Shown here: positions 44,319 to 62,107 of the stretch, piece after piece
Position numbering within the stretch: the first letter of the stretch is position 1
How the letters are laid out: every line of letters begins with the position of its first letter
NCBI RefSeq assembly: GCF_013204795.1
Contig: NZ_JABMKW010000008.1
Span: 186,001-250,000, forward strand
Source: Pedobacter panaciterrae
GTDB taxonomy: Bacteria; Bacteroidota; Bacteroidia; Sphingobacteriales; Sphingobacteriaceae
DNA: 64,000 nucleotides
Reading direction: 5' to 3'
Program-made: the position numbers and the translations under genes
The notes under the pieces: generated by a model
Told to the model about the DNA's origin: nothing
Seen by the model: the letters and a program-made list of their open reading frames with translations, nothing else
The model's database searches: none

Positions 44319-47234
44319 ATGAGGAAAACTCTACTAATCATCCTAATTCTATATTGTTTTACCCATTTTGAAGGTCTGGGCCAAATTGGCACACCTCAAA
44401 TACTTAACTATAATAATGACCAGTATAAAGCCGGAATGCAGAATTGGGATATTGCTCAAGACAAGAACGGTATTTTATATTTTGGCAATAATGAAGGTTT
44501 ACTGAGGTTTGATGGCAGGTTCTGGAATCTTATTAAATTGCCAAATTTTACTTCTGTAAGATCTGTTGAAATAGATTCGAAAGATAGGATCTTTATTGGG
44601 GGACAGGATGAAGCCGGATATTTTTATCCAGAGAAAAATGGAATATTGAAATATCATTCAATTATCCCTCTCATCCCCGAAAAATACCGAAGTTTTGCCG
44701 ATATATGGAATGTTGCTATTATAGATGATGCAGTAGTTTTCAGAACAACCAGCGTTATTCTTTATTATAAAGATGGGGTTGTAAAAACCTATAAACCAGA
44801 TATAGAATGGCAATTTGCAGGTAAGAGTAATCATCAGTTTTTTGCTCATTCTAAAGGGCATGGATTAATGATTTATGACGGTGAGATCTGGAAACCATAT
44901 TGTTCAGATCCAGTGTTGCTAAAATCTGCGGTGACTTCCATAATAGAATACAATAAAGACACCATGCTGGTCGCCACGTTAAAAAATGGACTTTTTTTAA
45001 TGCACAACGGAAAACTTACACCTAAACCAACAGCCCTGGATCAGATATTTTATAACGACAGGATTTATGGTGCTGATAGGATAGACAGTAATAAGTACGT
45101 AATTGGAACTACCTCTGCAGGGGTTCTAATTATTAACAAACAGGGGAAGGTTTTACAAAAATATACCTATAAGGATGGTTTACAGAATAACAATGTAAGA
45201 GGCTTTATTACTGATAGGAGCAAAAACCTTTGGTTAGCACTGAATGATGGGATTGATTATGTTGCCATTAACAGCGCAGTAAAAAGCATATTTCCTGATA
45301 AGAATAAACAGATAACAAGCTATGCTATACGTAATTTCAATGGGAAATTATATATCGGAACATCTAATGGCTTATATGTAACAGAAATTGAAGATGGTAT
45401 TGCTGATTTAAGTTTGTCGACCAAAGCATTTACGGAAGTTAAAAACTCTAAAGGGCAGGTCTGGAATCTTAGCGAAATCAACAACAAACTTTTAATGGGG
45501 CATGAGGATGGCTTTTTTGAAATTGAAAATGATGTTGCCCATCAAATATATAATCGGCCGGGAACATGGTTGTTTGAACCAACTTCAGAGGTTTATCCTT
45601 CACAGGATATTATAGCTGGCACCTATCTGGGTCTTCAGAAAATAAGTTATAGAAATGGAAGTTTTACCAATCAGGGCAAAATTGAAGGGCGTACAGAATC
45701 CTTAAGGTTTATCGCATTTGATGTCAACAATAATTTATGGGCATCGCATCCATATCACGGGGTATATAAAATTGAATTGTCTGAAGATTTTAAAAGAATA
45801 AAAAAATATACCATCTATACAGATAAGCAAGGGCTGCCTTCACATTTGTATAATTACATTTTTAAAATAAAGAATCGGGTTGTGGTCGCAACTAAAAATG
45901 GTGTATATGAATATGATGCGGCAAAAGATAATTTTAAGCCTTTTGTCTTACTTAGCGAAGCATTAAAGCGAATGCGAATCCAATATCTTAAAGAAGATTC
46001 TAAAGGAAACTTATGGTTTGTCTCAGATAAAAAAGTTGGAATATTAGATTTTGGACATCCAACAACTACAAAATCATTTACAATACATTATTTTCCTCAG
46101 CTAGATGGTAAAATAGTTGGTGGATTTGAGTCTATTTATTATCTGAATGATGAGAATGTTTTTATAGGTGCCAATAAGGGTGCTTATCATTTAAATTATG
46201 CCAAGTATTTGGAGAATATCCCAAAACCAAATGTTTTACTAGGTACAGTAAAGCTTTTTGGTAAAAAGGATAGTACAATCTTTGGTGGTTATTTCCTGAA
46301 TAAAGATAAAATGGTAAAAACTCAGGATTTATCCTCTGTTTTAAAACTTGCGAATGTGTACAGTTCTCTTCATTTTGAATATTCATCTACACTATTTGAG
46401 CATCAGGCAAATATTGAATTCGGTTATCAACTTGTTGGCTTTGATAAAGAATGGTCGTCCTGGACGCAAAAAAGTGAAAAAGATTATACTAACCTCCCTG
46501 CCGGGAAGTATACATTTAATGTTAGAGCCAGAAATAGTTTTGGCAACGAGTCTGAAGTTGTGGGGTATACTTTTGAAATTTTGCCTGCCTGGTATCAAAC
46601 GATATGGATGTATATGTTCTATGTATTGCTCCTGGGCGTAATTATCTATATGTTCTTTAAGTGGCAAAAGAAGAAACATATCAAAGCCCAGACCAGATTA
46701 AGCTATCTTCATCAGCTTGAAATGGATCGTAGCGAAAAAGAAATCGTCCGTTTAGAATACGAAAAACTGGAAGCCGATGTAAATTATAAAAATAGAGAGC
46801 TATCTAATATGACTATGCATCTGGTCCAGAGAGGCAAGGTGCTGGCTAAAATAAAAGAGGTGATTTCTGCTGTAATTAAAAATCACGATATCAACGACAG
46901 TTCCCCCAGCTTCCGACACTTGATCCGACTCATAAGAGATGTTGAAAAGAGTGATCAGGACTGGGAAAACTTCTCAATCCATTTTAATACTGTTAATACT
47001 AATTTCTTTAATAAGCTAAAAGATCAGTTTCCGGAGCTCACACCTAATGAGCTTAAATTATGTGCTTATCTTAAAATGAACCTTTCTACCAAGGAAATTG
47101 CTCAGCTCATGAACATTACAATAAAAGCAGTGGAGGTAGGAAGGTATCGGTTAAGGAAGAAACTACATATTCAGCCTGAAACTAATCTATATGATTTCCT
47201 TATCCAGATATCAAGAACTGCTGAGGGCTCCTGA
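44319..47234 (+). CDS. Y_Y_Y-domain transmembrane regulator with LuxR-type HTH
   Basis: A 971-residue one-component regulator spanning the inner membrane. A signal/anchor begins the protein, followed by two seven-bladed propellers of Reg_prop type (repeats like NWDIAQDKNGILYFGNNEGLLRFDG), a Y_Y_Y domain (about 684-755, FGYQLVGFDKEWSSWTQ... YTNLPAGKYTFNVRARN), one helix (about 762-781), a coiled coil and a C-terminal LuxR/GerE helix-turn-helix (about 905-965, LTPNELKLCAYLKMNLSTKEIAQLM). It looks like the sensor half of hybrid two-component systems but has no kinase or receiver. It lies immediately upstream of susC and probably activates the locus when a glycan binds outside. Confidence 0.9.
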   Translation: MRKTLLIILILYCFTHFEGLGQIGTPQILNYNNDQYKAGMQNWDIAQDKNGILYFGNNEGLLRFDGRFWNLIKLPNFTSVRSVEIDSKDRIFIGGQDEAGYFYPEKNGILKYHSIIPLIPEKYRSFADIWNVAIIDDAVVFRTTSVILYYKDGVVKTYKPDIEWQFAGKSNHQFFAHSKGHGLMIYDGEIWKPYCSDPVLLKSAVTSIIEYNKDTMLVATLKNGLFLMHNGKLTPKPTALDQIFYNDRIYGADRIDSNKYVIGTTSAGVLIINKQGKVLQKYTYKDGLQNNNVRGFITDRSKNLWLALNDGIDYVAINSAVKSIFPDKNKQITSYAIRNFNGKLYIGTSNGLYVTEIEDGIADLSLSTKAFTEVKNSKGQVWNLSEINNKLLMGHEDGFFEIENDVAHQIYNRPGTWLFEPTSEVYPSQDIIAGTYLGLQKISYRNGSFTNQGKIEGRTESLRFIAFDVNNNLWASHPYHGVYKIELSEDFKRIKKYTIYTDKQGLPSHLYNYIFKIKNRVVVATKNGVYEYDAAKDNFKPFVLLSEALKRMRIQYLKEDSKGNLWFVSDKKVGILDFGHPTTTKSFTIHYFPQLDGKIVGGFESIYYLNDENVFIGANKGAYHLNYAKYLENIPKPNVLLGTVKLFGKKDSTIFGGYFLNKDKMVKTQDLSSVLKLANVYSSLHFEYSSTLFEHQANIEFGYQLVGFDKEWSSWTQKSEKDYTNLPAGKYTFNVRARNSFGNESEVVGYTFEILPAWYQTIWMYMFYVLLLGVIIYMFFKWQKKKHIKAQTRLSYLHQLEMDRSEKEIVRLEYEKLEADVNYKNRELSNMTMHLVQRGKVLAKIKEVISAVIKNHDINDSSPSFRHLIRLIRDVEKSDQDWENFSIHFNTVNTNFFNKLKDQFPELTPNELKLCAYLKMNLSTKEIAQLMNITIKAVEVGRYRLRKKLHIQPETNLYDFLIQISRTAEGS

Positions 47235-47276
47235 TTAAAATAACTGTATTGTAAATCAGGAGTTTAGTTGCTCGCT

Positions 47277-47348
47277 GTAGTGGTGATGTAGTGGCGCTTG
47301 TATGGCGATAATGCCTTTGAATTTCTTTTTGTAGGGGTAGTGTAGTGG
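47277..47348 (+). promoter_or_regulatory. Pairs of GTAGTGG direct repeats ahead of susC
   Basis: GTAGTGG occurs at 47277 and 47288, and GTAGGGG/GTAGTGG at 47331 and 47342: two pairs, each with an 11-bp period, 54 bp apart. The 18-mers (GTAGTGGTGATGTAGTGG and GTAGGGGTAGTGTAGTGG) agree at 15 of 18 positions. The second pair ends 32 bases before the -7 box of susC. It is the natural candidate for binding of the Y_Y_Y/LuxR regulator, which is inferred. Confidence 0.6.
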
Positions 47349-47380
47349 TATGGAAATATTATAAAAACCGTTTCCAGGTA

Positions 47381-47388
47381 TAGATTTG
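47381..47388 (+). promoter_or_regulatory. -7 box of the first susC gene
   Basis: TAGATTTG is a perfect TAnnTTTG box about 65 bases before the ATG at 47454. There is no TTG at the -33 position, which fits a promoter that relies on the repeats just upstream. Confidence 0.5.
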
Positions 47389-47453: not shown

Positions 47454-50400
47454 ATGAAAAGAAGTCTTACACTTATTTTCTTCGTTTGCTGTCTTCTTAT
47501 GTCCCCATTTGCCTCAATGGCACAGGAAGTAACAGCAACGGGTAAGGTAACAGACAAGAGCGATGGAAAACCATTGCCAGGAGTTACCATAACATTACAA
47601 GGCACCACAAAAGCAACGCTCACAGACGCCAGCGGAAATTTTAGGATCGCGGTTCCCTCTGCAGGGTCAAAACTAATCATCAGCCAATTGGGGATGGTTT
47701 CACAAACAATAACCGTAACTAATAGCTCCTCTGTTAACATTGCATTAGAGACAGACGTTACTGCATTGGGAGAGGTAGTAGTAGTAGGTTATGGAACTCA
47801 GAAAAAGAGTAACGTTACTGGGTCAATTTCAAGTGTAAAAGCTAAGGACCTGGAAAGCATGCCGATAAATAGGGTCGAACAGGCTTTACAGGGCAGAACT
47901 TCCGGAGTAACCATAGCAACAAATAACGGGCAACCGGGAAGTGCAGCCACGGTAAGGATTAGGGGGTATACTACCTTTGCAAAAGATGGTAACAACAATC
48001 CTCTATGGGTGGTTGACGGAGTGATTGTAGATAATGGAGGTATTGGATACCTAAATCAATCTGATATTGAATCTATAGAAGTTTTAAAAGATGCAGCATC
48101 GCAAGCTATTTATGGAGCCCGTGCTGCAAATGGTGTTATCATAGTAACTACTAAGCGAGGTAAATCCGGACTTCTTCAAATTAACTATAATGGATTTTAC
48201 GGTACTTCTGCAGCTGCAAAAACTTTGGATCTGTTAAATGCATCGGAGTATGCTACACTTAGAAATGAAGCGGCAAAAAATACAGACCCTAATGCAACTT
48301 TACCATTTGCGAATCCCGCAGCATTAGGCAAGGGAACCGATTGGCAGGATATCATATTTAACAATGATGCGAGGAGACAAACCCATGAATTTAGTATCGC
48401 AGGCGGCGGAGAGAAATCTACATTTTATTCATCTTTCGGATACATAAAGCAGGAAGGTATAGTTGCAAGTCCGATTTCAAAATGGAACAGAGCGAATATT
48501 CGTTTAAATTCTACTCATAAGCTTGCAAAATGGTTAACTGTTGGAGAGAATTTAGGATATAGCCATTCTGTAAATAGCAGCTTAGGTAATACAAATAATG
48601 AATTTGGAGGGCCTTTGAGTTCTGCTATTGGTTTAGATCCAACCACTCCGGCGATTGAAACCAACCCGGATCTTATTTCAAAACCACCATATACAACACC
48701 AAATGTTTTAAGAGATAAAAGTGGAAACCCATTTGGATTATCACCTTGGGTTGGCCAGGAATTAATTAATCCCCTTGCTTATATTCAAACAAAACTTGGG
48801 AATTATGGCTGGGATCATAACATAATTGGAAATGCGTTTGCAGAACTACAGCCTATTAAAGATTTAGTTTTTAGATCAACGTTAGGAACCAAGATTGCAT
48901 TTTATGGCGATGATGCATTTAATCCGGTTGCCTATTTAAACTCATCCAATATCAGAACTAAAAACTCATTTGTACGTAATTGGAACAATGTTTTGAATTA
49001 CAATTTTGAAAACACGTTGAGTTATTCAAAAACGTTTGGAAAGCATAATGCGAATATTATAGTTGGTCAGGGAATTTATCTTGATGAAAATGTCAAAACT
49101 TTAAATGTAACATTCAACAATATTATTGCAAATAACTTTGAAGAAGCAAATTTAAATTATAAACCAGTTAGTGCAGACAGAACTGCAGATGGAAACGATG
49201 GGACAGTTCATAAAGTTAACTCTTTATTTTCTCGTATATCTTATAATTATGACGAAAAATACCTCTTTACCGGTATTATCAGAAGAGATGGTTCATCGCG
49301 TTTTGGTGATAACAATAAGTTCGGATACTTCCCTTCATTTTCATTAGGATGGGTGCCTACCAAAGAGAATTTCTGGAAGGAAAATAACGTTATAAATTTC
49401 TTTAAAATCCGTGGGGGTTACGGTGTAACAGGTAATGATCAAATTTCCAATTTTGCTTACAATGCCCTGGTTTCAAGTGGACGGAACTATACTTTTGGAA
49501 CTACAGATGTCAGCTCAATAGGATGGAGCCCGGCAGCCCCTTCTAATCCGGATTTGAAATGGGAAGAAACCCGCCAGACAACATTAGGTTTTGATGCCAC
49601 TATATTCACCAACTTTACTTTGGCCTTTGACGTTTATAAAAAGAAAACAGTTGGAGTACTTCAGTATCCAACACCCCCAAGCTATCTAGGTGTAGCTGGA
49701 GCCCCAGCCCAAAACATTGGAGATATGGAAAATAAGGGTTTGGAACTTGAACTTGGATATCGTAAAACATTCGGAGAATTTAACCTTGGCGTAAATGGAA
49801 ATGTTTCCTTCTTAAAAAACAAAGTAACTAAACTTGCCACAGGTAAATTATTTATTGAAGATGAAGCCCAAAGCTTTCAGGGTATGGGCAATATTACCCG
49901 AACAGGAATAGGGCACTCTTTCAATGAATTCTATGGTTACGAAACACTTGGCATTTTTCAAAATCAAGCGGAAATTGATAGTTATGTCGGACCAGGGGGA
50001 ACTAAGCTGCAGCCTAATGCAAAACCCGGAGATGTTAAGTTCGCGAATTTAAATGGCGATAATCAGATTGAGGCAGCAGATAGGACATATCTGGGAAGCC
50101 CGATTCCAAAATATACTTATGGCCTAACAATAAATATGGCCTATAAGAACTTTGATTTTGTAGTGTTTGGAAGTGGAGCAGGTGGCAATATGATATTTCA
50201 AGGCTTACGTCGTTTAGATGTAACATTTGCTAACTGGCAAACTGACATCCTAAATCGTTGGACGCCTACAAATCCTTCGACTACCATACCAAGAGTTGTT
50301 GAAAAGGACGACAACAAAAACAACACTAATTTCACAAGAAGATATCTTGAAAAAGGAGATTATTTCAGATTAAAAACATTACAGCTTGGATATAACATTC

Positions 50401-50585
50401 CTAAAAATGTAATTCAAAAAATTGGTGCGCAAAAAGTACGTGTTTATGTAATGAGTGAAAACCTTTTTACCATAACTAAGTACACAGGGTATGATCCTGA
50501 AATTGGAGGAACTGTATTTGGAGTTGATAAAGGAATCTATCCGCAGGCACGTTCGTTTATGGTTGGATTAAATGTTGGATTTTAA
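47454..50585 (+). CDS. susC: SusC-like TonB-linked outer-membrane receptor
   Basis: TonB-dependent glycan transporter, 1043 residues. Signal (LIFFVCCLLMSPFASMAQ), then a carboxypeptidase-like domain (about 28-105, ATGKVTDKSDGKPLPGVTITL), the linker GEVVVVGYGTQKKSNVTGSIS, a plug (about 118-225) with NPLWVVDGVIVDN, and a 22-stranded barrel ending in ARSFMVGLNVGF. There is no STN domain, so the receptor does not signal through FecR; the Y_Y_Y regulator ahead probably controls it. The SusD gene begins 11 bases later. It imports oligosaccharides released by the enzymes of the locus. Confidence 0.95.
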   Translation: MKRSLTLIFFVCCLLMSPFASMAQEVTATGKVTDKSDGKPLPGVTITLQGTTKATLTDASGNFRIAVPSAGSKLIISQLGMVSQTITVTNSSSVNIALETDVTALGEVVVVGYGTQKKSNVTGSISSVKAKDLESMPINRVEQALQGRTSGVTIATNNGQPGSAATVRIRGYTTFAKDGNNNPLWVVDGVIVDNGGIGYLNQSDIESIEVLKDAASQAIYGARAANGVIIVTTKRGKSGLLQINYNGFYGTSAAAKTLDLLNASEYATLRNEAAKNTDPNATLPFANPAALGKGTDWQDIIFNNDARRQTHEFSIAGGGEKSTFYSSFGYIKQEGIVASPISKWNRANIRLNSTHKLAKWLTVGENLGYSHSVNSSLGNTNNEFGGPLSSAIGLDPTTPAIETNPDLISKPPYTTPNVLRDKSGNPFGLSPWVGQELINPLAYIQTKLGNYGWDHNIIGNAFAELQPIKDLVFRSTLGTKIAFYGDDAFNPVAYLNSSNIRTKNSFVRNWNNVLNYNFENTLSYSKTFGKHNANIIVGQGIYLDENVKTLNVTFNNIIANNFEEANLNYKPVSADRTADGNDGTVHKVNSLFSRISYNYDEKYLFTGIIRRDGSSRFGDNNKFGYFPSFSLGWVPTKENFWKENNVINFFKIRGGYGVTGNDQISNFAYNALVSSGRNYTFGTTDVSSIGWSPAAPSNPDLKWEETRQTTLGFDATIFTNFTLAFDVYKKKTVGVLQYPTPPSYLGVAGAPAQNIGDMENKGLELELGYRKTFGEFNLGVNGNVSFLKNKVTKLATGKLFIEDEAQSFQGMGNITRTGIGHSFNEFYGYETLGIFQNQAEIDSYVGPGGTKLQPNAKPGDVKFANLNGDNQIEAADRTYLGSPIPKYTYGLTINMAYKNFDFVVFGSGAGGNMIFQGLRRLDVTFANWQTDILNRWTPTNPSTTIPRVVEKDDNKNNTNFTRRYLEKGDYFRLKTLQLGYNIPKNVIQKIGAQKVRVYVMSENLFTITKYTGYDPEIGGTVFGVDKGIYPQARSFMVGLNVGF

Positions 50586-50596
50586 TAAACATCAAA

Positions 50597-52132
50597 ATGA
50601 AAAATAAATTAACATATATAGCTGCTCTTTTTATTGGAGCGCAATTCATGGGATCATGTAAAAAGGATCTGGATGTAAATCCCAGAGAAAGAATACTTGA
50701 ATCTAATTATTATAAAACTCCTGAACAGGCTTTTAGTAGTTTGATCTCGGTGTATGATCAATTTGGAAACCAGTCTGGTGGCTATTTAACCAAGCTAAAT
50801 ATTTTTTCTTCCGGGTCTGATGATCACTACGCTGGAGGTGATTCCCCATCTGATCTTGGTGATCTGCAGGCAATGAATAACTATACAGTAAGTTCATTAT
50901 CCGGAGCACCAAGTTATCTGTGGGGTAAAGGCTTTACCGGGGTTTATAGGGCCAATATATTTTTACAAAAGGTAGAGGAGATTCAAATGGATGCCAGTAC
51001 CAAAAACAGATATATTGCAGAAGCAAAAGCTTTAAGAGCTATCTTTTATTTCGACCTGGTTCGGATATTTAAGAACATACCCCTTATTTTAAAACCCGTT
51101 GAAACGAGTGATTGGTATAATGTCCTACAGGTTCCTCCTGCCGATGTATACAAACAAATTGAATTGGATTTAAAAGAAGCTATCCCCAATCTTCCGTTAA
51201 CGGTTCCAAGAAACACTGAAGGTGGAAGGTTAACCCAGGGAGCGGCTCATGCAGTACTCGGTAAGGTATACCTTTGGCAGGAAAAATTTGCTGATGCCGC
51301 TACTGAATTTGCAGATGTAAACGGTCCTTCGCCCGGTACTACGCCTAGTAAATATGGTTATGTGCTAATGAGCAAGTTTGAGGACTTGTATAAACTCGCT
51401 AATAAATTCAATTCCGAATCCATTCTTGAGATTTCCTATAACAGCACTTCAAATATGGGCTGGGGTAATGTTGGTAGTGGCGAAGGTAATGTAGCTGGGA
51501 TTATGTCGGGCCCTCGGAACTACAATATTCTAATTCCTGACAAAGCTCCGGATTATGTTTCCGGATGGAGTGTTATGCCATTTACTAAAGAGTTCTTTGC
51601 ACTCATTCACTTCGATCCTCGTAATAAACCAACAGTTGCAAATTTAGATAGTCTTGAAAAGGCCGGTATTGTAACTTATAAACACGCCAACGATAATACT
51701 GGTTATTTTGTTGAAAAGTATGCTGGCAGAGTATCCACCAAAGCCAATAGCGGACAGCTTGAACTTAACTTCCCTTATAATCTTTATGAAATACGTTTGG
51801 CCGACACTTACTTAATGGAAGCTGAAGCTGTATTGAAAAGTGGAGGAGCTGTTGGAGCAGGAAGCAGAGCTTATGCTGCTTTAAATGCAGTAAGAGCCAG
51901 AGTTGGATTGAAACCAGTGGACGTTACCATGGATAATATAATAAAAGAAAGACGTATTGAACTAGCAGCTGAAGGACAGCGCTGGTTTGATCTTGTGCGT
52001 TGGGGACTTGCACCTGCTAAACTAGCCTTTAAAGGTTTTGTGGCCGGAAAAAATGAAACATTACCTATTCCAAATGGTGAACTAAATAATACAAAGATAG
52101 TTCAGAGTAAAGAGTGGGGTGGTACTAAATAA
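50597..52132 (+). CDS. susD: SusD/RagB-like outer-membrane lipoprotein
   Basis: Surface glycan-binding lid of the SusC receptor, 511 residues. Lipoprotein signal LFIGAQFMGSC. N-terminal SusD region: ILESNYYKTPEQAFSSLISVYDQFGN, TPR-like helices (RYIAEAKALRAIFYFDLVRIFKNIPLI), and C-terminal RagB block (RLADTYLMEAEAVLKSGG, IIKERRIELAAEGQRWFDLVRWGLA). Aromatic residues that would form the glycan platform cannot be identified by eye. It is followed by a strong hairpin and then the GH30 gene. Confidence 0.95.
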   Translation: MKNKLTYIAALFIGAQFMGSCKKDLDVNPRERILESNYYKTPEQAFSSLISVYDQFGNQSGGYLTKLNIFSSGSDDHYAGGDSPSDLGDLQAMNNYTVSSLSGAPSYLWGKGFTGVYRANIFLQKVEEIQMDASTKNRYIAEAKALRAIFYFDLVRIFKNIPLILKPVETSDWYNVLQVPPADVYKQIELDLKEAIPNLPLTVPRNTEGGRLTQGAAHAVLGKVYLWQEKFADAATEFADVNGPSPGTTPSKYGYVLMSKFEDLYKLANKFNSESILEISYNSTSNMGWGNVGSGEGNVAGIMSGPRNYNILIPDKAPDYVSGWSVMPFTKEFFALIHFDPRNKPTVANLDSLEKAGIVTYKHANDNTGYFVEKYAGRVSTKANSGQLELNFPYNLYEIRLADTYLMEAEAVLKSGGAVGAGSRAYAALNAVRARVGLKPVDVTMDNIIKERRIELAAEGQRWFDLVRWGLAPAKLAFKGFVAGKNETLPIPNGELNNTKIVQSKEWGGTK

Positions 52133-52199: not shown

Positions 52200-53603
52200 A
52201 TGAGATCAAAAAAGCTCAGTTCAATTCTAGGGCTGGTTATTACATTTGTTTCATTTGTCGCAAATGCTCAAAATGATGTGAGCCTATGGCTTACAAAAGC
52301 AGATAAATCAGTTCTATTTACCAAACAGAAAAGAATATTGAAATTTGCGGGCATAAAAAATAACAATCCAACCATTGTAGTTGATGAGAAAGAGCCTTTC
52401 CAATCAATTGATGGTTTTGGCTATGCGTTAACTGGAGGAAGCGCCCAACATCTCATTAAAATGAGCCCTAAAGCAAGGGCAGCTTTGTTAAAGGAATTAT
52501 TTGCTACTGATGGTAATAATATTGGGGTTAGCTATATACGACTGACCATCGGTGCCTCAGATCTAAATGAGAAAGTATTTTCATATAATGATTTAGCTGA
52601 GGGAGAAACAGATTTGGAGCAAACCAAATTTGAATTGGGTCCCGATCGAATAGATGTAATTCCCGTAATGAAAGAAATACTTTCTATCAATCCAAATATC
52701 AAAATAATGGGGTCGCCCTGGTCGCCACCGCTATGGATGAAAACATCTTATGATGCAAGAGGGGGGATGTTAAAACCTGAATTTTATGAAGCTTATGCAA
52801 AATACTTTGTCAGGTATATTCAGGATATGGGCAAAGAAGGAATTCATATAGATGCTGTTACTATTCAAAATGAACCACTTCATCCTGGCAATAACCCAAG
52901 CCTGCTGATGGTGGCACCTGACCAGGCAATCTTTATTAAGAATAACCTTGGACCCGCTTTCCAGAAAGCCGGTTTAAAGACAAAGATTATTATATATGAC
53001 CATAATGCGGATCGTCCTGATTATCCAATTACGATTCTAAATGATCCTGATGCCAGGAAATATATTGATGGGTCTGCTTTTCATCTTTACGGTGGAGAAA
53101 TTGAGGCATTAACAGATGTGCACAATGCCTATCCTGACAAGAATATTTATTTTACAGAACAAATGGTTATTGAAGATCCAAACGAAAATAGGATCAACAT
53201 TTTATCACCAATTAAAAGACTCATTATAGGAGCTACCAGAAACTGGAGCAGAAATGTTTTAGAATGGAATTTAGCAGCAGATCCTGAAAATAAACCTTTT
53301 ACGGATAGAGGAGGATGCCCGATGTGCCAAGGCGCAGTTACGATAGATGAAGATAAAGTAACAAGGAACCTAGCCTATTATTCGATAGCGCATGCATCTA
53401 AATTTGTTCGCCCTGGTTCTCTGCGAATTGCTTCCAGCGAGCCCAAAGAGCTTTCTAATGTTGCATTTAAAACTCCTGACGGAAAAAAAGTACTAATAGT
53501 TGCCAATAGTGGAAAGAATGCACAAACATTTAATATTAGCTTTAATGGTAAATTACTAAGCGATACGATTGACAATGGTGATGTTGCAACCTATATCTGG
53601 TAA
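52200..53603 (+). CDS. GH30 family glycoside hydrolase
   Basis: Secreted retaining glycosidase of 467 residues, signal peptide LGLVITFVSFVANAQ. The (beta/alpha)8 barrel opens with the FQSIDGFGYALTGGSA block (residues 67-82). The acid/base is Glu225 in TIQNEPLHPGNNPS and the nucleophile Glu320 in IYFTEQM; the side beta-domain follows after 420. The sequence style resembles the GH30_3 subfamily, whose known members are endo- or exo-beta-1,6-glucanases, but that assignment is from memory and needs testing. It lies 67 bases after susD, behind the hairpin, and 48 bases ahead of the GH5 gene. Confidence 0.88.
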   Translation: MRSKKLSSILGLVITFVSFVANAQNDVSLWLTKADKSVLFTKQKRILKFAGIKNNNPTIVVDEKEPFQSIDGFGYALTGGSAQHLIKMSPKARAALLKELFATDGNNIGVSYIRLTIGASDLNEKVFSYNDLAEGETDLEQTKFELGPDRIDVIPVMKEILSINPNIKIMGSPWSPPLWMKTSYDARGGMLKPEFYEAYAKYFVRYIQDMGKEGIHIDAVTIQNEPLHPGNNPSLLMVAPDQAIFIKNNLGPAFQKAGLKTKIIIYDHNADRPDYPITILNDPDARKYIDGSAFHLYGGEIEALTDVHNAYPDKNIYFTEQMVIEDPNENRINILSPIKRLIIGATRNWSRNVLEWNLAADPENKPFTDRGGCPMCQGAVTIDEDKVTRNLAYYSIAHASKFVRPGSLRIASSEPKELSNVAFKTPDGKKVLIVANSGKNAQTFNISFNGKLLSDTIDNGDVATYIW

Positions 53604-53651: not shown

Positions 53652-55421
53652 ATGTTTCAAAAATTAACATTAGTCAGGCTATTTTTTATAATAGCGGTAT
53701 CTGTTTTGTATTCCACGTCTGGGTTGGCACAGGGCTTTTTAAGGGCAGATGGAAAGAAGATTGTAAATGAAAAGGGCGAGAATGTATTATTAAGAGGAGT
53801 TGGTCTTGGGGGATGGATGCTCCAGGAGGGTTACATGTTAAAAATAAATAAAGAAGGTCAGCAATATCGTATTCGGGAAAGAATTGAAGAGTTAATGGGG
53901 GCGAAACAAACCCAGGAATTTTATGATCTGTGGCTTGCCAATCATACCAGAAAGATTGATGTAGATTCAATGAAAGCATGGGGCTTTAACTCAATCAGGT
54001 TACCAATGCATTATAACCTTTATACATTACCTATTGAAAAAGAATCTGTGAAGGGACAAAATACCTGGCTAGACAAGGGATTTGCGATGACAGACTCTTT
54101 ACTTTCATGGTGCAAGGCAAATCAGATGTATTTAATTTTGGATCTTCATGCAGCACCTGGCGGACAGGGAAATGATTTAAATATTTCAGATCGAGACCCT
54201 TCAAAACCGTCACTATGGGATAGTCCTGCTAATCAGGAAAAAACGATAGCTTTATGGAGGAAGTTAGCAGAGCGATATGTCAATGAACCCTGGATTGGAG
54301 CATATGATATCATAAACGAACCTAACTGGGGATTTGAGGACCTTGCAAAAGACAAGAATGGAATAAATGAAAAAAAGAATGAGCTATTAAAGAAATTAAT
54401 GGTTGATATCACAAAAGCAATAAGAGAGGTTGATAAAAAACACATTATTATAATTGAAGGTAATGGCTGGGGAAATAATTATAATGGCATTCTTCCTCCT
54501 TGGGACAATAATATGGTTCTAAGCTTTCATAAATACTGGAGCTATAATGATCAGGCATCGGCGGAAAATATGATCAAGACAAGAGATCAGTATAATATTC
54601 CTATTTGGTTAGGTGAGACAGGAGAGAATTCAAATGTTTGGTTTACCGAGGCCATTCGCTTATTTGAAACTAATAATATTGGTTGGGCATGGTGGCCACT
54701 AAAGAAAGTTGGGGCCAACAATCCAATGGAAATAAAATCTAACCTGAACTATAATGATGTTGTAAGTTATATAAATGGAAATGGAAATAAACCTAAAGAA
54801 AGTAATGTTTATAGTGGTTTAATGGAGCTTGCTACTTACGCAAGACTTGAAAATACAATTATCCATTATGATGTAATTGACGCAATGATCCGTCAGCCTT
54901 TTTCTGCAGAAACCAAGCCATTTAAAAAGCATATTATTGGAAAAACTACTACTGTGAATGGAGTTGATTACGATTTGGGCAGAAACGGCGCTGCCTATTT
55001 TGATAAAGACACGGCAGACTATCACGTCTCTACCGGAAAATATACTGCAGGAAACAAAGGAAGAATTTATAGAAATGATGGGGTGGATATTGCAAAAGAC
55101 AGTACCAAATATGAATCTTATTACGTTAATAATATTGAATCAGGAGAGTGGCTTCAGTATACTGTTGATGTAGAAAAAAAAGGAATATATACTATTAAAT
55201 TAAATGTTGCTTCAGATAATACGAAGGGAAGGATTTCTTTAGCTTCTGACGGAGCCTTAATCGCAAAAGAAATCACGGTATCCAACACAGGCGGATTAAC
55301 AACTTTTAAAACAATAGAAATAAAGAATATTCCACTCAAAGCAGGGAAACAAAGTATAAAGGTTTTGGCAGATACAGGTTATTTTAATTTTAATTACCTT
55401 CAATTTATTAGACAAATGTAA
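53652..55421 (+). CDS. GH5 endoglycanase with C-terminal CBM6-like domain
   Basis: Secreted 589-residue enzyme, signal peptide FFIIAVSVLYSTSGLAQ. The GH5 barrel (about 30-400) has the block RGVGLGGWMLQEGYML, the acid/base Glu223 in DIINEPNWG, the nucleophile Glu322 in IWLGETGEN and conserved HAAPGGQ. After a linker, residues about 455-589 form a CBM6-type beta-sandwich (GEWLQYTVDVEKKGIYTIKLNVAS, LKAGKQSIKVLADTGYFNFNYLQF), which binds glycan chain ends. GH5 covers beta-1,4, -1,3 and -1,6 glucanases and others; the substrate is unproven. It is followed by the cytochrome gene 14 bases later, so it is part of the same operon. Confidence 0.9.
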   Translation: MFQKLTLVRLFFIIAVSVLYSTSGLAQGFLRADGKKIVNEKGENVLLRGVGLGGWMLQEGYMLKINKEGQQYRIRERIEELMGAKQTQEFYDLWLANHTRKIDVDSMKAWGFNSIRLPMHYNLYTLPIEKESVKGQNTWLDKGFAMTDSLLSWCKANQMYLILDLHAAPGGQGNDLNISDRDPSKPSLWDSPANQEKTIALWRKLAERYVNEPWIGAYDIINEPNWGFEDLAKDKNGINEKKNELLKKLMVDITKAIREVDKKHIIIIEGNGWGNNYNGILPPWDNNMVLSFHKYWSYNDQASAENMIKTRDQYNIPIWLGETGENSNVWFTEAIRLFETNNIGWAWWPLKKVGANNPMEIKSNLNYNDVVSYINGNGNKPKESNVYSGLMELATYARLENTIIHYDVIDAMIRQPFSAETKPFKKHIIGKTTTVNGVDYDLGRNGAAYFDKDTADYHVSTGKYTAGNKGRIYRNDGVDIAKDSTKYESYYVNNIESGEWLQYTVDVEKKGIYTIKLNVASDNTKGRISLASDGALIAKEITVSNTGGLTTFKTIEIKNIPLKAGKQSIKVLADTGYFNFNYLQFIRQM

Positions 55422-55435
55422 TTGCAAATTAAATT

Positions 55436-56605
55436 ATGAAGCGTAAAGGACGTTTACTCCTTGTGTTCAGTACTATAGCTATTTTGGTGATTCTATTCTC
55501 CCAATGTATGGATACCTCCAAAAATATGAAAGCAACAGAAACATCCATTGCAGGTGCAAAAACATGTGTCCAATGTCATAAAGATATTTCCAATTCTTAT
55601 TTAAATGATGTTCATTATGCTGCTTCAAGCCCGGTAGAGAATAATAATCAGATCAAACTTGGTACTGATTACGTTTATGAGTATGATAAAAACTTAAAAG
55701 TTGCCATAGAAAAAAGAGATAGTGGTACCTATCAGGTTGTTTATTTTAATGGAAAAGAAGATCTGGCTAAAAGATTTGATATTGCTATTGGGGCAGGTAA
55801 AAATGCTTATACCTATGCCTCATGGAGAGGGAATATATTAAGACAACTTCCACTCTCTTTTTTTAATCAAATAAATGGATGGGCTAACAGTCCGGGTCTG
55901 CGAACAAGCAGCCCGGATTTTGGAAGGATAATAGACTCACGATGCTTAGAATGTCATAGCTCCTTTATAGAAAGTAACAAGGCAAATAATGGCAGTTTAA
56001 TTGTTTCTCACGAAATGTTGAAATCTTCTCTTGTTTATGGAATTGATTGTGAGCGCTGCCATGGGCCAGCAGGTAAACATGTTGAATTCCATTTAAAAAA
56101 TCCTGATGAGAAGGAAGCTAAATTTATGGTGCTTTATAAAACACTTACAAGGAAACAAAGAGTTGATGCATGTGGCATTTGTCATTCCGGTAATGATGCA
56201 GAGTTACTGAAATCTACATTTTCTTTTAAGCCAGGAGAAGATATTAAACAATATTACGCGCATGTTTCATCGGCTCAGGAATCCCAACTCGATGTTCACG
56301 GCCAGCAAAACCAGATGCTTGAGGCGAGTAAATGTTTTACTAAAAGTAATTCGCTCGAATGTTCAACGTGCCATAGCCCGCATGATCAGAACAAAGGAAG
56401 CTTAACATTGTATTCAAAAAAATGTATAAGTTGTCATGCTACCATAAAGCATACACAGAAAACATTGGAAAACGCTATGGTAAAAACCAATTGTATTGAT
56501 TGCCATATGCCTTTAAAACCTTCCAAGGCAATTAGCTTTCAACAGGCCGGCATGTCAGACGTAAGTCCGTATATGCTCAGGTCACACCGTATAGCAATAT
56601 ATTAA
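55436..56605 (+). CDS. Seven-heme c-type cytochrome, periplasmic
   Basis: A 389-residue exported protein with hydrophobic anchor or signal (LLLVFSTIAILVILFSQC). Seven CxxCH heme motifs are present: CVQCH (44), CLECH (170), CERCH (205), CGICH (246), CSTCH (309), CISCH (330) and CIDCH (353). The pattern resembles multiheme cytochrome c554-like proteins. It starts 14 bases after the GH5 gene, so it is likely expressed with the glycan enzymes. Its redox partner is not obvious; no lytic polysaccharide monooxygenase is visible. Whether it serves glycan oxidation or only shares a transcript is unknown. Confidence 0.87.
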   Translation: MKRKGRLLLVFSTIAILVILFSQCMDTSKNMKATETSIAGAKTCVQCHKDISNSYLNDVHYAASSPVENNNQIKLGTDYVYEYDKNLKVAIEKRDSGTYQVVYFNGKEDLAKRFDIAIGAGKNAYTYASWRGNILRQLPLSFFNQINGWANSPGLRTSSPDFGRIIDSRCLECHSSFIESNKANNGSLIVSHEMLKSSLVYGIDCERCHGPAGKHVEFHLKNPDEKEAKFMVLYKTLTRKQRVDACGICHSGNDAELLKSTFSFKPGEDIKQYYAHVSSAQESQLDVHGQQNQMLEASKCFTKSNSLECSTCHSPHDQNKGSLTLYSKKCISCHATIKHTQKTLENAMVKTNCIDCHMPLKPSKAISFQQAGMSDVSPYMLRSHRIAIY

Positions 56606-56671: not shown

Positions 56672-57253
56672 ATGGATTACAGGCTCTTATCTGATGACGA
56701 ATTAATTGTTCTTTTCAAAGGAAGTTGCCAGCATGCGTTTAAGGAGATGTATTTGCGGTACTGGCAAAAGGTATATCAGGTTGCTTATAAGAAAGTACAC
56801 CATAAAGAGCTTGCCGAAGAGTTAACCCAAAATCTCTTTGTGGAACTATGGAGACGAAGAGAAACAGTAACAATAAATTCATTAGGGGCTTATCTTTTCG
56901 GGAGTTTAAAATATTGTATCATCAATCATTACAAATCATTATTGGTTCAGGAAAACTATCACAATTATGTAAAGGCTTCTGCGAATTATGGGGTAGTAAA
57001 CAATACCGATTATCTATTGATGCTTAATGAACTCTCTGACGCACTTGCCAGAGGGATTGCACTGCTTCCCAAAAAAACTGCCGAGGTATTCAGAATGAGC
57101 CGAATTGAACACCGCTCGGTTAAAGATATATCTGAGCAGCTTCATATATCCGAAAAAGCAGTTGAATATCACATTACCCAATCGCTTAAATCAATTCGGT
57201 TTTACCTTAAAGAGTACCTGTTTCTATTGGTTGCTTTTATTATGTTTCTATAA
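56672..57253 (+). CDS. ECF sigma factor (sigma-70 family, FecI-like)
   Basis: An extracytoplasmic-function sigma factor of 193 residues. Region 2 (about 10-80) has YLRYWQKVYQVAYKKVHHKELAEELTQNLFVELWRRR, and region 4 (about 125-180) has LPKKTAEVFRMSRIEHRSVKDISEQLHISEKAVEYHITQSLKSI with the HTH. It is typical of the large Bacteroidota FecI family controlling glycan loci. The C-terminal end, YLFLLVAFIMFL, is strongly hydrophobic, which suggests membrane contact. The FecR anti-sigma gene starts 72 bases later. Confidence 0.95.
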   Translation: MDYRLLSDDELIVLFKGSCQHAFKEMYLRYWQKVYQVAYKKVHHKELAEELTQNLFVELWRRRETVTINSLGAYLFGSLKYCIINHYKSLLVQENYHNYVKASANYGVVNNTDYLLMLNELSDALARGIALLPKKTAEVFRMSRIEHRSVKDISEQLHISEKAVEYHITQSLKSIRFYLKEYLFLLVAFIMFL

Positions 57254-57325
57254 GTTTCATTTTTTTTTAAAATTATTTTAGGGATAAGGGCTACTTAGCT
57301 TACATATAGTTTAAAAGCTATAAAA

Positions 57326-58378
57326 ATGAGCAGAGAAGCATTTCATCTATTACTGGAAAGATACCTGCAGAACAGGTGTACAGATGAAGAAAAGGAAATT
57401 ATCGAAAAATGGTATGGAATGCTTGATAAGCATGATATGGAAGATATTGCCCCAACCCAAATAAATGCATTGGAGCAGAAACTGTGGGACAGAATACATG
57501 AAAGTGCCATCACAGAAGATGAAACTCCTGTTCGTAAACTTAAACCTCAGCGCCAAACATCCAGAACTTTAATAACTGCTGTTGCTGCCGTAATTGCAGG
57601 CTTTGTAATTATTACCGCCTATGTATTCTTTAGAGTTGACAGTAAAAAACCTGAATTCATGGTTGCCTCAATTGCAAACAATATTAATTCTGTTTCAAAT
57701 AATACTGCTATGCCCATGGTAGTAAATTTGGAAGACGGAAGTTCTGTTACCCTGCAACCAAAATCTTTATTGAAGTACCCTAAACATTTTTCCAAAACTG
57801 TTCGTGAAGTCACACTTGAGGGAGAAGGCTTTTTTGAGATCAGTAAAAACCCATCCAAACCATTCCTTGTATACAACAGCAATGTAATTACAAGAGTTGT
57901 AGGAACCAGCTTTATCGTAAAAACAAATAGTACAGCAAGCGAAACTGAAGTAACAGTTAAAACAGGAAAAGTAATTGTTTCTCCAAACTCCGGGACCCTT
58001 TCCTTTAAAATTGGTGACCTCTTAAAATCAGGCAAAGGGGTGATACTTACCCCAAATCAGAAAACTGTTTATAGTGCCTCCGAAAATACATTTGCAACCA
58101 CACTTGTTGATAAACCTTTACCGATAGCAAAAAATAATAAGCAACCTATAAAAGAGAGCTATTCTTTCAATGACAGCCGTGTTGCCGATGTCCTAAATCA
58201 GCTTCAAAAATCATATGGGATTGAATTTGTTGTGGAAGACAAAGAATTGTACAACTATACATTTACGGGCGACCTCTCTGAACAAGATTTATACAGTCAG
58301 TTAGATTTTCTATGTGAATCAATTCAGGCAACCTATCAGGTAAAAGAGACTAAAATAATTATCAAAGAAAAAAATTAA
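57326..58378 (+). CDS. FecR family anti-sigma factor
   Basis: A 350-residue membrane protein. Residues 1-70 are the cytosolic sigma-binding part, one helix (about 85-107, TLITAVAAVIAGFVIITAYVFF) crosses the membrane, and the periplasmic FecR domain (about 130-235, VVNLEDGSSVTLQPKSLLKYPKHF... EVTLEGEGFFEIS) is followed by the DUF4974 domain (about 270-350, ESYSFNDSRVADVLNQLQKSYGI). It would hold the sigma factor until the STN domain of its SusC partner signals that glycan is present. Confidence 0.94.
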   Translation: MSREAFHLLLERYLQNRCTDEEKEIIEKWYGMLDKHDMEDIAPTQINALEQKLWDRIHESAITEDETPVRKLKPQRQTSRTLITAVAAVIAGFVIITAYVFFRVDSKKPEFMVASIANNINSVSNNTAMPMVVNLEDGSSVTLQPKSLLKYPKHFSKTVREVTLEGEGFFEISKNPSKPFLVYNSNVITRVVGTSFIVKTNSTASETEVTVKTGKVIVSPNSGTLSFKIGDLLKSGKGVILTPNQKTVYSASENTFATTLVDKPLPIAKNNKQPIKESYSFNDSRVADVLNQLQKSYGIEFVVEDKELYNYTFTGDLSEQDLYSQLDFLCESIQATYQVKETKIIIKEKN

Positions 58379-58543
58379 AACCTAAAAATCAACCAGAACT
58401 AAAAACCTAACCAAACCAGCTTATGAAGAAAAGAGAATTTTACTAACCAAATGATAAAAAAAAAACTGACAATGTTGCGGGACATTGCCAGTTAAAAATT
58501 CTGTACGAAAAGTTTCATATTAACGAACAAAACTCCTAAAGTT
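58379..58543 (+). promoter_or_regulatory. Leader of the second susC: tiny frame and hairpin
   Basis: This 165-base gap has a short frame MKKREFY (58423-58446), whose first residues resemble those of the SusC protein after it. The hairpin AACTGACAATGT/AACTGGCAATGT-type arms lies at 58464-58493 with loop TGCGGG and one mismatch. A poly-A run precedes it, so it reads as a T-tract on the minus strand. A role as attenuator of susC is possible; the tiny frame may be chance. Confidence 0.35.
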
Positions 58544-61500
58544 ATGAAAAAAAAGCGATTTGTTGCTTTAATAAAAACAGCAATGAGGATATCTATAGCC
58601 CAAATATTTCTTGTAGTTCTATTCACATGTGGCGCAGCGGCAAAAAATGCTGGCGCTCAGGGAATATTGAATAAAGAAATTTCCATCAGCATTAATGATG
58701 CTAAGGTAACCGAGATATTAAATGAAATTCAAAACCAAACAAAAGTTAAATTTATTTATAGTCCATCGGTAATTAAGTCTGAGCGAAAAACATCAGCAAA
58801 CTATACCAAAAAACGGCTTGGAGACATCCTTGACGAGACATTAAATCCACTAAGTATCTTCTATAAGGTAATTGATAACAGAATTATTCTGTACGAAAAA
58901 GATATGTCTAAGAAGACTAATGAGCCAAATACCAATAAGCCCCCTGTTCCACTCAAAGGTAAGGTAACTTCAACAAAAGGAGAAACATTACCCGGGGTAA
59001 GTGTAAAAGTAAAAGGTACTACAACAGCTACTATTACAGATATAAATGGAAATTTTGCCATTAGTGTGCCTGATGCTAATGCTGTTTTGGTTTTTTCTTA
59101 TATCGGTTTTACGTCAAAAGAAGTTCCGGTTAATGGCCAGAGCACTTTAAATGTTCAGCTTGTCGAAGAAGAAACTTCATTAGGTGAAGTTGTTGTTCTG
59201 GGATACTCGACACAAAAGAAAAAGGACCTTACCGGGGCCGTTTCTGTGGTGAATGTTGCCGACATGATTAAACAACCCAGCCCATCCATAAATAATCTGT
59301 TGCAAGGACAGGCCTCTGGGGTTACCATTTTGGGTTCGGGACAACCTGGAGAAGAGCCTCAGGTGCGTATCAGGGGAGTAAATACTTTTGGCAATAACAA
59401 CCCACTTTACGTGGTTGATGGTGTTCCAACGCTCAATGTAGCCGATATTAATCCGAATGATATAGAATCGATGCAGGTGTTAAAAGATGCAGGATCAGCT
59501 TCAATTTACGGATCACGTGCGGCAAATGGAGTTATTGTAATCAGTACTAAAAAAGGTAAGGATAAAGTAAAGGTACAATATGATGCTTATTATGGTACAC
59601 AGCGACCTAAAACAGGAAACGTTTGGAATATTTTGTCGCCACAGGAGATGGCAAATCTGAAAAGACTTGCTGAAGCAAATACTGGAGAAACTGAATTTGA
59701 TGATCCACTATATGGAAATGGTCCAACCTATGTATTGCCCGATTATATCTATCCACTAGGGGCTAAAGAGGGAGATCCATCTGTAAACCCATCCTTATAT
59801 AATGTAAAACCGTTATTTACTTCTGATGAAGAGTATAATAACTTTTACAGAATTAATAGAGCAAACAAAGCAGGAACGAACTGGTATGATGAAATATTTA
59901 ACCCGGCACCAATAACCAGTCAGAACATCTCTGTAAGTGGCGGTTCAGATCAGGGGAGTTATCTTTTCTCTGCAAATTATTTCAATCAGAAAGGAACATT
60001 GGATAGAACTTATCTAAAAAGATATACAGTGCGTTCTAATACTCAATATAACATTGGAAAATATGTCAGGGTTGGAGAGAACTTAGCTTATACCATTACA
60101 AATAATCCTAAAATAGACGGGCTTAGTGGTGACAATGCTATAGGGCATGCTTTTAGAGAGCAACCTATTATCCCTGTATATGATATTATGGGGAATTTCG
60201 CAGGTGGTTATGGTGGGAAATTAGGCGATGCCTATAATCCGGTAGCCATGCTGTATCGTACTAAAGATAATAAGGCAACAGACAACAGGTTATTTGGAAA
60301 TATCTTTGCAGAGGCAGATATTTTGCCTTTTTTAACACTTAGAACTGCATTTGGTGCCGATTCATTTTCAGGCGCATCCAGATCATTTGTTTTTCCTCAA
60401 TATGAAAATGCAGAGAATACAACTAGTAACAGTTATGCCGAATCTTCAAATACTGGATTAGAATACACCTGGACAAATACCTTATCATTTAACAAAACTT
60501 TTAACCTGCATAGTTTAAAGGTATTGGTAGGAACTGAGTACAACAAGAACCGGTATAGCACCATGAGCGGAAGTAACAAAGGCTATTTCTCATTTGATCC
60601 CGATTATACAAACCTTTCGAATGGTAGCGGCCCAATGGAAACTGTTAGTGAAAGAACTGCTGATGCTTTGTTCTCACTAATAGGGCGTGTTGATTATGCA
60701 TTTAATGACAAATATCTTATCGGAGCTACTATCCGTAGAGATGGTTCATCTAAATTCCTGAAAAACACATATGGAGTTTTTCCCGCAGTAAGTGGTGCCT
60801 GGAGGATCTCAAAAGAAAGCTTTTTATCTGATGTGAAATGGATTACGGATCTAAAAATAAGAGGTGGCTGGGGTATTATGGGTAACCAGGTAAATGTTTC
60901 CGGTGCCAACTCCTTTACAACATTTGGTAGTTCAATTGGCCAGTCTTATTATGCAATAGGTGGCGGAAATGCTGTAGTTGCAGGATTCTTTCAAAATCAA
61001 ACCGGAAATCCGGATGCAAAATGGGAGAAAAATGTAAACTCAAACTTTGGTTTTGATGCAACATTATTTGGTGGCGGTATAGAGATCTCTGCTGATTATT
61101 ACCAGAAAAATGTTCGTGATCTTTTGTACAATCCAGAAATGATTGGAACTGTTGGTGCTGCTACTGTGCCATTTGTTAACATAGCTCAAATGAAAAATGA
61201 TGGGTTCGATATTTCGTTAACAGGACATAAAGATGTAGGAAGCGATCTTAAACTTAATGCCACTGCAACAATTACCACCTACCGTAACGAGATAAAAAAA
61301 GTATCTGGAGATGTAGATTATTACGATGTAGATTCAAGAAGATTTGATGGTAGTCGTATTATTCGTAATGCTGTAGGACACTCGGTTAGTGAATTCTTTG
61401 GTTATAAAATAGCCGGATTCTGGAATTCAGACAATGAAATTGAAGCTGCAAATACAAAAGCTCAAGCTGTTACCGGTGATCCAAATACTGTTTATCAGGA

Positions 61501-62107
61501 TGATGTTAAAGTCGGCAGGTTTAAATACGCAGATGTAAATGGCGACGGAATGATTACGGCCGATGACAGAACCTTTTTAGGTAATGCAAATCCGGATTTC
61601 AGTTACGGGCTTAACCTGGGTGCTAGTTTTAAAAACTTCGACTTTAGTGCTTTCTTTTATGGTGTTCAAGGCAATTCAATTTGGAATCAGGTAAAATGGT
61701 GGACAGATTTTGTGCCTTCTTTTGGCGGAGCAAAAAGCCACACAGCTCTTTATGACTCATGGACACCCTCGCATCAGAATGCAAAGGCACCAATACAGGA
61801 AACAACCCAATCTTTTAGCACAAACAGTGTCCCTAATTCTTATTTCGTAGAAAAAGGATCTTACCTGAGACTTAAAAACGTGCAAATTGGTTATACACTC
61901 GCTGCAAATAAGCTTCAAAAGCTGGGTGTTAACAGGCTAAGGGTTTATATCTCTGCGGCCAATTTGTTCACAGTAACAAAATATTCAGGAGTAGATCCGG
62001 AAGTTGGAACCTCAAGTGAAACAGGACAGCAAACAGCCTACGGGGTTGATGACGGTTCTTATCCAAGTCAACGGACTTTTTTACTGGGTTTAAATTTACA
62101 GTTTTAA
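58544..62107 (+). CDS. susC: SusC-like TonB receptor with STN signalling domain
   Basis: TonB-dependent receptor of 1187 residues. After the signal (AMRISIAQIFLVVLFTCGAAAKNAGA|Q) the N-terminal secretin-and-TonB (STN) domain occupies about 45-125 (ISINDAKVTEILNEIQNQTKVKFIYSPSV). The carboxypeptidase-like domain (about 137-220) begins LKGKVTSTKGETLPGVSVKV; a plug (about 225-340, NPLYVVDGVPTLN) and the barrel ending QRTFLLGLNLQF complete it. The STN domain would contact FecR and trigger the sigma factor upon ligand. This and the SusD at 62128 form a second glycan import pair. Confidence 0.95.
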   Translation: MKKKRFVALIKTAMRISIAQIFLVVLFTCGAAAKNAGAQGILNKEISISINDAKVTEILNEIQNQTKVKFIYSPSVIKSERKTSANYTKKRLGDILDETLNPLSIFYKVIDNRIILYEKDMSKKTNEPNTNKPPVPLKGKVTSTKGETLPGVSVKVKGTTTATITDINGNFAISVPDANAVLVFSYIGFTSKEVPVNGQSTLNVQLVEEETSLGEVVVLGYSTQKKKDLTGAVSVVNVADMIKQPSPSINNLLQGQASGVTILGSGQPGEEPQVRIRGVNTFGNNNPLYVVDGVPTLNVADINPNDIESMQVLKDAGSASIYGSRAANGVIVISTKKGKDKVKVQYDAYYGTQRPKTGNVWNILSPQEMANLKRLAEANTGETEFDDPLYGNGPTYVLPDYIYPLGAKEGDPSVNPSLYNVKPLFTSDEEYNNFYRINRANKAGTNWYDEIFNPAPITSQNISVSGGSDQGSYLFSANYFNQKGTLDRTYLKRYTVRSNTQYNIGKYVRVGENLAYTITNNPKIDGLSGDNAIGHAFREQPIIPVYDIMGNFAGGYGGKLGDAYNPVAMLYRTKDNKATDNRLFGNIFAEADILPFLTLRTAFGADSFSGASRSFVFPQYENAENTTSNSYAESSNTGLEYTWTNTLSFNKTFNLHSLKVLVGTEYNKNRYSTMSGSNKGYFSFDPDYTNLSNGSGPMETVSERTADALFSLIGRVDYAFNDKYLIGATIRRDGSSKFLKNTYGVFPAVSGAWRISKESFLSDVKWITDLKIRGGWGIMGNQVNVSGANSFTTFGSSIGQSYYAIGGGNAVVAGFFQNQTGNPDAKWEKNVNSNFGFDATLFGGGIEISADYYQKNVRDLLYNPEMIGTVGAATVPFVNIAQMKNDGFDISLTGHKDVGSDLKLNATATITTYRNEIKKVSGDVDYYDVDSRRFDGSRIIRNAVGHSVSEFFGYKIAGFWNSDNEIEAANTKAQAVTGDPNTVYQDDVKVGRFKYADVNGDGMITADDRTFLGNANPDFSYGLNLGASFKNFDFSAFFYGVQGNSIWNQVKWWTDFVPSFGGAKSHTALYDSWTPSHQNAKAPIQETTQSFSTNSVPNSYFVEKGSYLRLKNVQIGYTLAANKLQKLGVNRLRVYISAANLFTVTKYSGVDPEVGTSSETGQQTAYGVDDGSYPSQRTFLLGLNLQF

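Follow-up and report, generated by a model that had tools for sequence, protein, structure and literature searches.

The polysaccharide utilization locus (PUL) described here raises the question of which DNA sequence a membrane-bound regulator of the SusR-like type reads. In the window (the whole stretch of 64,000 nucleotides from Pedobacter panaciterrae analyzed here), a 971-aa SusR-like regulator encoded at 44319-47234 is followed by susC (starting at 47454), susD and genes for a GH30 and a GH5-CBM protein. The 219-bp gap between the regulator and susC contains a pair of direct repeats. Based on the comparisons below, we regard this element as very probably the operator of that regulator.

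The regulator, the repeats and the gene neighborhood

The features of the locus are as follows:

44319..47234, plus strand: SusR-like regulator with a Reg_prop propeller, Y_Y_Y (residues 697-754), one transmembrane span (~767-789), a long helix and a C-terminal LuxR/GerE-type helix-turn-helix (HTH, 907-960), from Pfam and an AlphaFold model
47037..47198, plus strand: stretch coding for the HTH, the probable operator contact
47276..47283, plus strand: half-site 1a, TGTAGTGG, distal site
47287..47294, plus strand: half-site 1b, TGTAGTGG, 11 bp past 1a
47330..47337, plus strand: half-site 2a, TGTAGGGG, proximal site, 54 bp past 1a
47341..47348, plus strand: half-site 2b, TGTAGTGG, 11 bp past 2a
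47381..47388, plus strand: –7 box TAGATTTG of the susC promoter, lacking a –33 TTTG, with its position fixed across homologous promoters
47454..50585, plus strand: susC-like TonB-dependent transporter (Pfam), presumed target
50597..52132, plus strand: susD-like protein (Pfam)
52200..53603, plus strand: GH30; closest solved relative the endo-β-1,6-glucanase BT3312 (5ngk)
53652..55421, plus strand: GH5 with a CBM6/35-type module

As in other SusR-like PUL regulators, the regulator gene adjoins susCD and glycoside hydrolase genes, and its product is up to 98% identical to proteins of named Pedobacter loci. The order of regulator, SusCD and GH30 would fit a β-1,6-glucan PUL. The closest match of the GH30 protein is BT3312 (5ngk, E 4e-81); the NCBIfam BT3312 model also hits it (E 1e-118), with 397 bits and thus below the equivalog cut-off of 700 bits. 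Directly 3′ of the PUL genes lies a gene for a protein with paired CXXCH haem motifs (55436-56605, cytochrome c3/c7-like). It is followed at 56672-62107 by an ECF σ factor, a FecR-type anti-σ factor and a second, longer SusC, an adjoining system of another regulatory type.

Pfam detects the periplasmic Reg_prop propeller and Y_Y_Y sensor in the regulator as well as a GerE domain just above threshold (23.8 bits, cut-off 23.5), but no histidine kinase, receiver or AraC domain; a membrane span, WYQTIWMYMFYVLLLGVIIYMFF, is visible by eye. An AlphaFold model of the C-terminal 204 amino acids, based on a 33-sequence alignment, has a pLDDT of 83 and consists of a long helix, a helical bundle and an HTH. 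The solved structures nearest to it are the NarL/LuxR-type C-terminal domains of VraR, DosR, LiaR and RcsB, with target-normalised TM scores of ~0.75-0.82 for the isolated domains and no Foldseek E-value below 0.05. The Pfam hit and the fold match of the model agree in assigning a GerE-type HTH to the C-terminus.

The repeats are the 18-mers GTAGTGGTGATGTAGTGG (47277-47294) and GTAGGGGTAGTGTAGTGG (47331-47348), which are offset by 54 bp and differ in 3 of 18 bases. Each is composed of two half-sites with an 11-bp period, so that four TGTAGkGG words stand at positions 0, 11, 54 and 65. The proximal pair ends 32 bp upstream of the –7 box TAGATTTG, and no TTTG is found 17-23 bp upstream of this box. 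The first-pass annotation had read the gap in the same way, with paired 18-bp direct repeats ahead of susC made of GTAG(T/G)GG pairs with an 11-bp period and 54 bp apart, a –7 box lacking a –33 just downstream, and an adjacent regulator with a DNA-binding domain; each of these points holds.

Taken by itself, this single sequence is modest evidence, as the repeats are improbable only to a moderate degree. A search of the 64 kb with the 18-bp pattern and up to two mismatches returned the two known sites only (0.26 expected), but ~2% of shuffles of the 219-bp gap contain an 18-mer pair this similar at a distance of 40-70 bp. One sequence could therefore not settle the question of chance, and the comparative evidence was decisive. 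Across the organism's own genome, the exact four-half-site pattern matches once, in the window, while the reversed control gives no match.

Conservation, spacing and promoter geometry

We gathered 30 regulators with 49-100% identity by protein similarity rather than by the motif. Among those with 58-100% identity and an adjacent susC, the four-word element is present in 26 of 26 promoters with a spacing of 53 or 54 bp, and in all but one of them the –7 box lies 49-51 bp past the start of site 2. Averaged over 19 non-redundant promoters, conservation amounts to 1.7 bits per base in the word cores, compared with 0.48 for the spacer between the pairs.

The distribution over genomes is equally regular. 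An orthologous regulator is encoded in 28 of 60 Pedobacter genomes, and in all 28 the element precedes susC. The exact four-word pattern matches once in each of 27 genomes, all with the ortholog, and control matches are absent; in the 28th ortholog-bearing genome (G008) the element is present with one base changed. No match to the exact pattern was found in the 32 Pedobacter genomes without the ortholog. The resulting Fisher p of 3e-16 is a descriptive figure, since the genomes are related. One genome (G025) carries an extra gene between regulator and susC, and here the element lies beyond that gene, ~1.5 kb from the regulator. In another (G009:C1:4085533-4088426), a frame break interrupts the orthologous regulator, but the operator is intact.

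A looser pattern, permitting spacings of 40-64 bp, was applied to 201 genomes of the family. It matched in 32 genomes from seven genera, once in each, with 0 control matches and ~0.0001 matches expected per genome from base composition. The first-pass annotation had proposed looking for the same repeat ahead of susC beside similar regulators; this check succeeded in all 28 Pedobacter genomes with the ortholog and in six further genera. The spacings were 43 (two matches), 44 (three), 53 (11), 54 (15) and 55 bp (one), i.e., two clusters that differ by one helix turn; the more distant relatives L082 and L083 also have a spacing of ~44 bp. With approximately one value per genus, the phase concentration at a 10.5-bp period is 0.93 (p ~0.0002 against a uniform distribution, an approximate value because genera are related). 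Since only 43/44 and 53-55 occur among the permitted 40-64, the two pairs keep to one helix face.

The promoter is similarly constrained. The –7 box TAGATTTGA is almost invariant among homologous promoters. In 31 of 32 of them, it lies 49-51 bp from where site 2 begins; a –33 TTTG is absent from 29 of 31 and present in two. Where a TAnnTTTG box is present, its distance from site 2 is 50-51 bp at spacings of 44, 53, 54 and 55 bp alike. The box was not found at the expected place in five elements of the non-Pedobacter type (L045, L197, L198, L210, L211), which include both with a spacing of 43 and both of the Solitalea type. Because the distance to the –7 box is constant whatever the spacing between the sites, the proximal pair is anchored to the promoter, with the distal pair held on the same face of the helix. 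Promoters that depend on an activator are expected to look like this, and we infer such dependence here from the good –7 box, the missing –33 and the site that ends ~32 bp upstream of the box.

Since sequence does not reveal the sign of regulation, the regulator could instead bind the element but act as a repressor, or manage without both pairs. In relatives with 49-50% identity, regulator and susC point away from each other and the element lies on the susC side, with words at 0, 54 and 65 and the –7 box at 50-51, but the distal site has a degenerate second half, which would suit a lesser need for two complete pairs. Degenerate or altered half-sites, at least one per element, occur both in these relatives and in more distant clades. 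However, a consensus –7 box without a –33 fits activation, a SusR-type PUL of B. thetaiotaomicron is induced ~100-fold by pustulan (PMC5481569), and the helical phase kept between the pairs speaks against a single pair being sufficient. We therefore consider this alternative improbable and favor activation through both pairs.

Association of the element with the DNA-binding domain

For 17 pattern matches, we examined the genes within 8 kb on either side. A regulator bearing this DNA-binding domain lies directly upstream in 15 cases, comprising 14 full-length regulators (50-62% identity) and one protein with the DNA-binding domain only. Two types of loci separate the element from susC and from the sensor. 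In Solitalea-type genomes (L210, L211; the named case is L121, Solitalea agri), the element has a spacing of 44 bp and its target is not susC but a 285-aa GH16-like gene (assigned by eye), followed by relatives of the GH30 and GH5 genes of the window. In a single genome, L203 (G502:C12:97088-98809) encodes a 574-aa regulator with 7TMR-DISMED2 and 7TMR-DISM_7TM domains in place of the propeller sensor. Its C-terminal domain shares 64% identity with the window's regulator (residues 775-964 of the latter). Its front part shows 40-48% identity to further family members, most of them 620-700 aa long, and the majority of these matches cover residues 6-455 only. The operator of L203 is intact, with a spacing of 44 bp. 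This locus is a natural sensor swap, and because it exchanges the sensor yet keeps both the DNA-binding domain and the operator, the operator would belong to the C-terminal domain. The non-susC target in Solitalea and the exchanged sensor in L203 together support the view that the element tracks this domain rather than susC.

As the layout follows the DNA-binding domain from genome to genome, the repeats are almost certainly where the adjacent sensor docks. The first-pass annotation had put the Y_Y_Y/LuxR regulator forward as their likely ligand, a proposal that gains support from the co-occurrence, the Solitalea target and the sensor swap. Another regulator, such as a global factor or a soluble response regulator of the LuxR type, might bind the repeats, with the SusR-like gene adjoining by coincidence. 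LuxR-type DNA-binding domains are numerous in the organism's own genome, several weaker relatives among them, and two genomes carry the element without a local regulator: L199 (G549:C5) and L201 (G518:C85) have a perfect four-word operator before susCD and no regulator within 8 kb, so that action in trans must be assumed there. Both genomes do encode relatives of the DNA-binding domain (53-54% identity) elsewhere, beside a GH16-like gene whose promoter has related GTAGT words. A coincidental neighbor is hard to reconcile with the near-perfect match between presence or absence of the element and of the ortholog in 60 genomes, with the single site per genome, and with an element that accompanies the regulator to a non-susC gene and survives a change of sensor; we judge it highly unlikely. 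We give practically no credence to the repeats being conserved as an inherent part of susC promoters or of a leader RNA that needs no dedicated activator since, even though the element mostly precedes susC, it lies upstream of the –7 box and hence outside the predicted transcript, is missing from the other susC genes of the genome (one genome-wide match) and serves a GH16-like gene in Solitalea.

Relation to other SusR-like systems and proposed mechanism

Across 395 genomes of the whole class, the exact pattern matches in Pedobacter only. The exact word therefore appears confined to the family, with remoter SusR-like regulators seemingly using other words. In L084, whose regulator is 39% identical, the susC promoter contains AGGGAGG half-sites in 11-bp pairs, 64 bp apart, suggesting a shared layout with a different word. 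A shared operator was also considered for a 33%-identical paralog (G000 C18:86572) and rejected: its susC promoters carry TGATGTATTAATGTAGAGG instead. This sequence is conserved in the susC promoter throughout the paralog's clade (L002, L096-L115), which is present in most Pedobacter genomes searched, and an inverted ACTACATCATTACCTCTCAT directly follows the stop codon of the regulator. An attempt to pin the change of word between clades on single residues of the recognition helix failed, since the RYRLRKK stretch within it is invariant across the regulator family.

Presumed Bacteroidaceae relatives are 26-33% identical to the window's regulator over the full length. In SusR-like promoters of this presumed family (L155-L168, L151, L164, L165), TGACGTATT words stand at 0, 44, 55 and 77, all multiples of 11, and precede a TATGTTTG box. 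A further Bacteroidaceae relative, L228, has TGACGTA/TGATGTA words 33 bp apart (seen by eye), and searching two Bacteroidaceae promoters for repeats of any kind yielded chance-level ones only. In Bacteroides, direct-repeat motifs with center distances of 67 or 77 bp have been predicted for SusR and for three proteins like it (SusR2, SusR3 and SusR4), and binding from the same side was proposed (Ravcheev et al. 2013, PMC3878776). The TGACGTATT lattice may be the 77-bp motif of that study at half-site resolution.

Both the Bacteroides motifs and our element are computational predictions that place two long-spaced direct-repeat sites upstream of susCD under a membrane regulator. The element thus has the two-site architecture of the SusR-like class, but at 53-54 bp (43/44 bp in some genera) rather than 67 or 77 bp and with each site split into two TGTAGkGG half-sites 11 bp apart. 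The operators of this class had been called little described in the first-pass annotation. This holds only in part, given the motifs predicted for Bacteroides in 2013 (PMC3878776). We found no experimental test of any SusR-like operator in the open papers searched, and the mechanism of SusR-type regulators has been called undefined (PMC6874557).

Other known systems share parts of the arrangement. The β-1,6-glucan PUL BT3309-BT3314 of B. thetaiotaomicron, in which pustulan raises the expression of all genes but that of the regulator 10- to 100-fold (PMC5481569), likewise combines a SusR-type regulator adjoining susCD with a GH30 endo-β-1,6-glucanase. It differs in having a GH3 where the window has GH5-CBM, the window's GH30 scores below the NCBIfam equivalog cut-off, and the Bacteroidaceae relative L228 has TGACGTA/TGATGTA words instead. 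Hybrid two-component systems (HTCS) share the Reg_prop/Y_Y_Y periplasmic sensor, PUL control and direct-repeat motifs, and the HTCS sensors 4a2l and 3v9f are the nearest solved relatives; lacking histidine kinase, receiver and AraC domains, the window's regulator falls outside this class. Its C-terminal HTH has the same fold as those of the NarL/LuxR family (NarL, DosR, VraR, LiaR, RcsB), but unlike these it is membrane-tethered, has no receiver, and its half-sites are arranged head-to-tail in two widely spaced pairs.

Starting from the observed sequence, its conservation, the spacing rule, the single copy per genome and the co-occurrence with the DNA-binding domain, we infer binding, ligand, stoichiometry and activation along the following lines. 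The periplasmic propeller would bind an oligosaccharide, probably a β-1,6-glucan fragment, whereupon the cytoplasmic LuxR-type domains of the ligand-bound regulator would bind DNA. Each pair would accommodate two domains, one per half-site in head-to-tail orientation and one turn (11 bp) apart, and the two pairs would be clasped on the same helix face at a distance of about five turns. From its place ~32 bp upstream of the –7 box, the proximal pair would compensate for the absent –33 through contact with RNA polymerase, and this contact would switch on susCD and the glycoside hydrolase genes.

In the literature searched, previous knowledge of SusR-type operators amounts to one computational study of Bacteroides. 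As far as sequence comparison can tell, new here are the lineage, the half-site resolution, the phasing rule, the fixed promoter anchor and the natural sensor swap. An exact predicted DNA target with base-level conservation is now available for a SusR-type regulator. The spacing rule predicts that 5-bp insertions kill activity while 10-bp insertions are tolerated, the swapped sensor of L203 is usable as a ready-made chimera, and the one-per-genome pattern can be used for finding targets distant from their regulator. A broader reading, to which we attach as much belief as doubt, is that membrane sensors of Bacteroidota, SusR-like and others, have a DNA-binding module in common that can be exchanged between them and that recognizes direct-repeat words arranged as a helical lattice: half-sites would be 11 bp apart head-to-tail, the second pair would follow after an integral number of turns (44, 54 or 64 bp), and a –33-less promoter would lie at a fixed distance from the proximal pair, so that a sensor swap would change the input while the operator stays. 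If this reading is true, inputs and operators evolve as separate parts.
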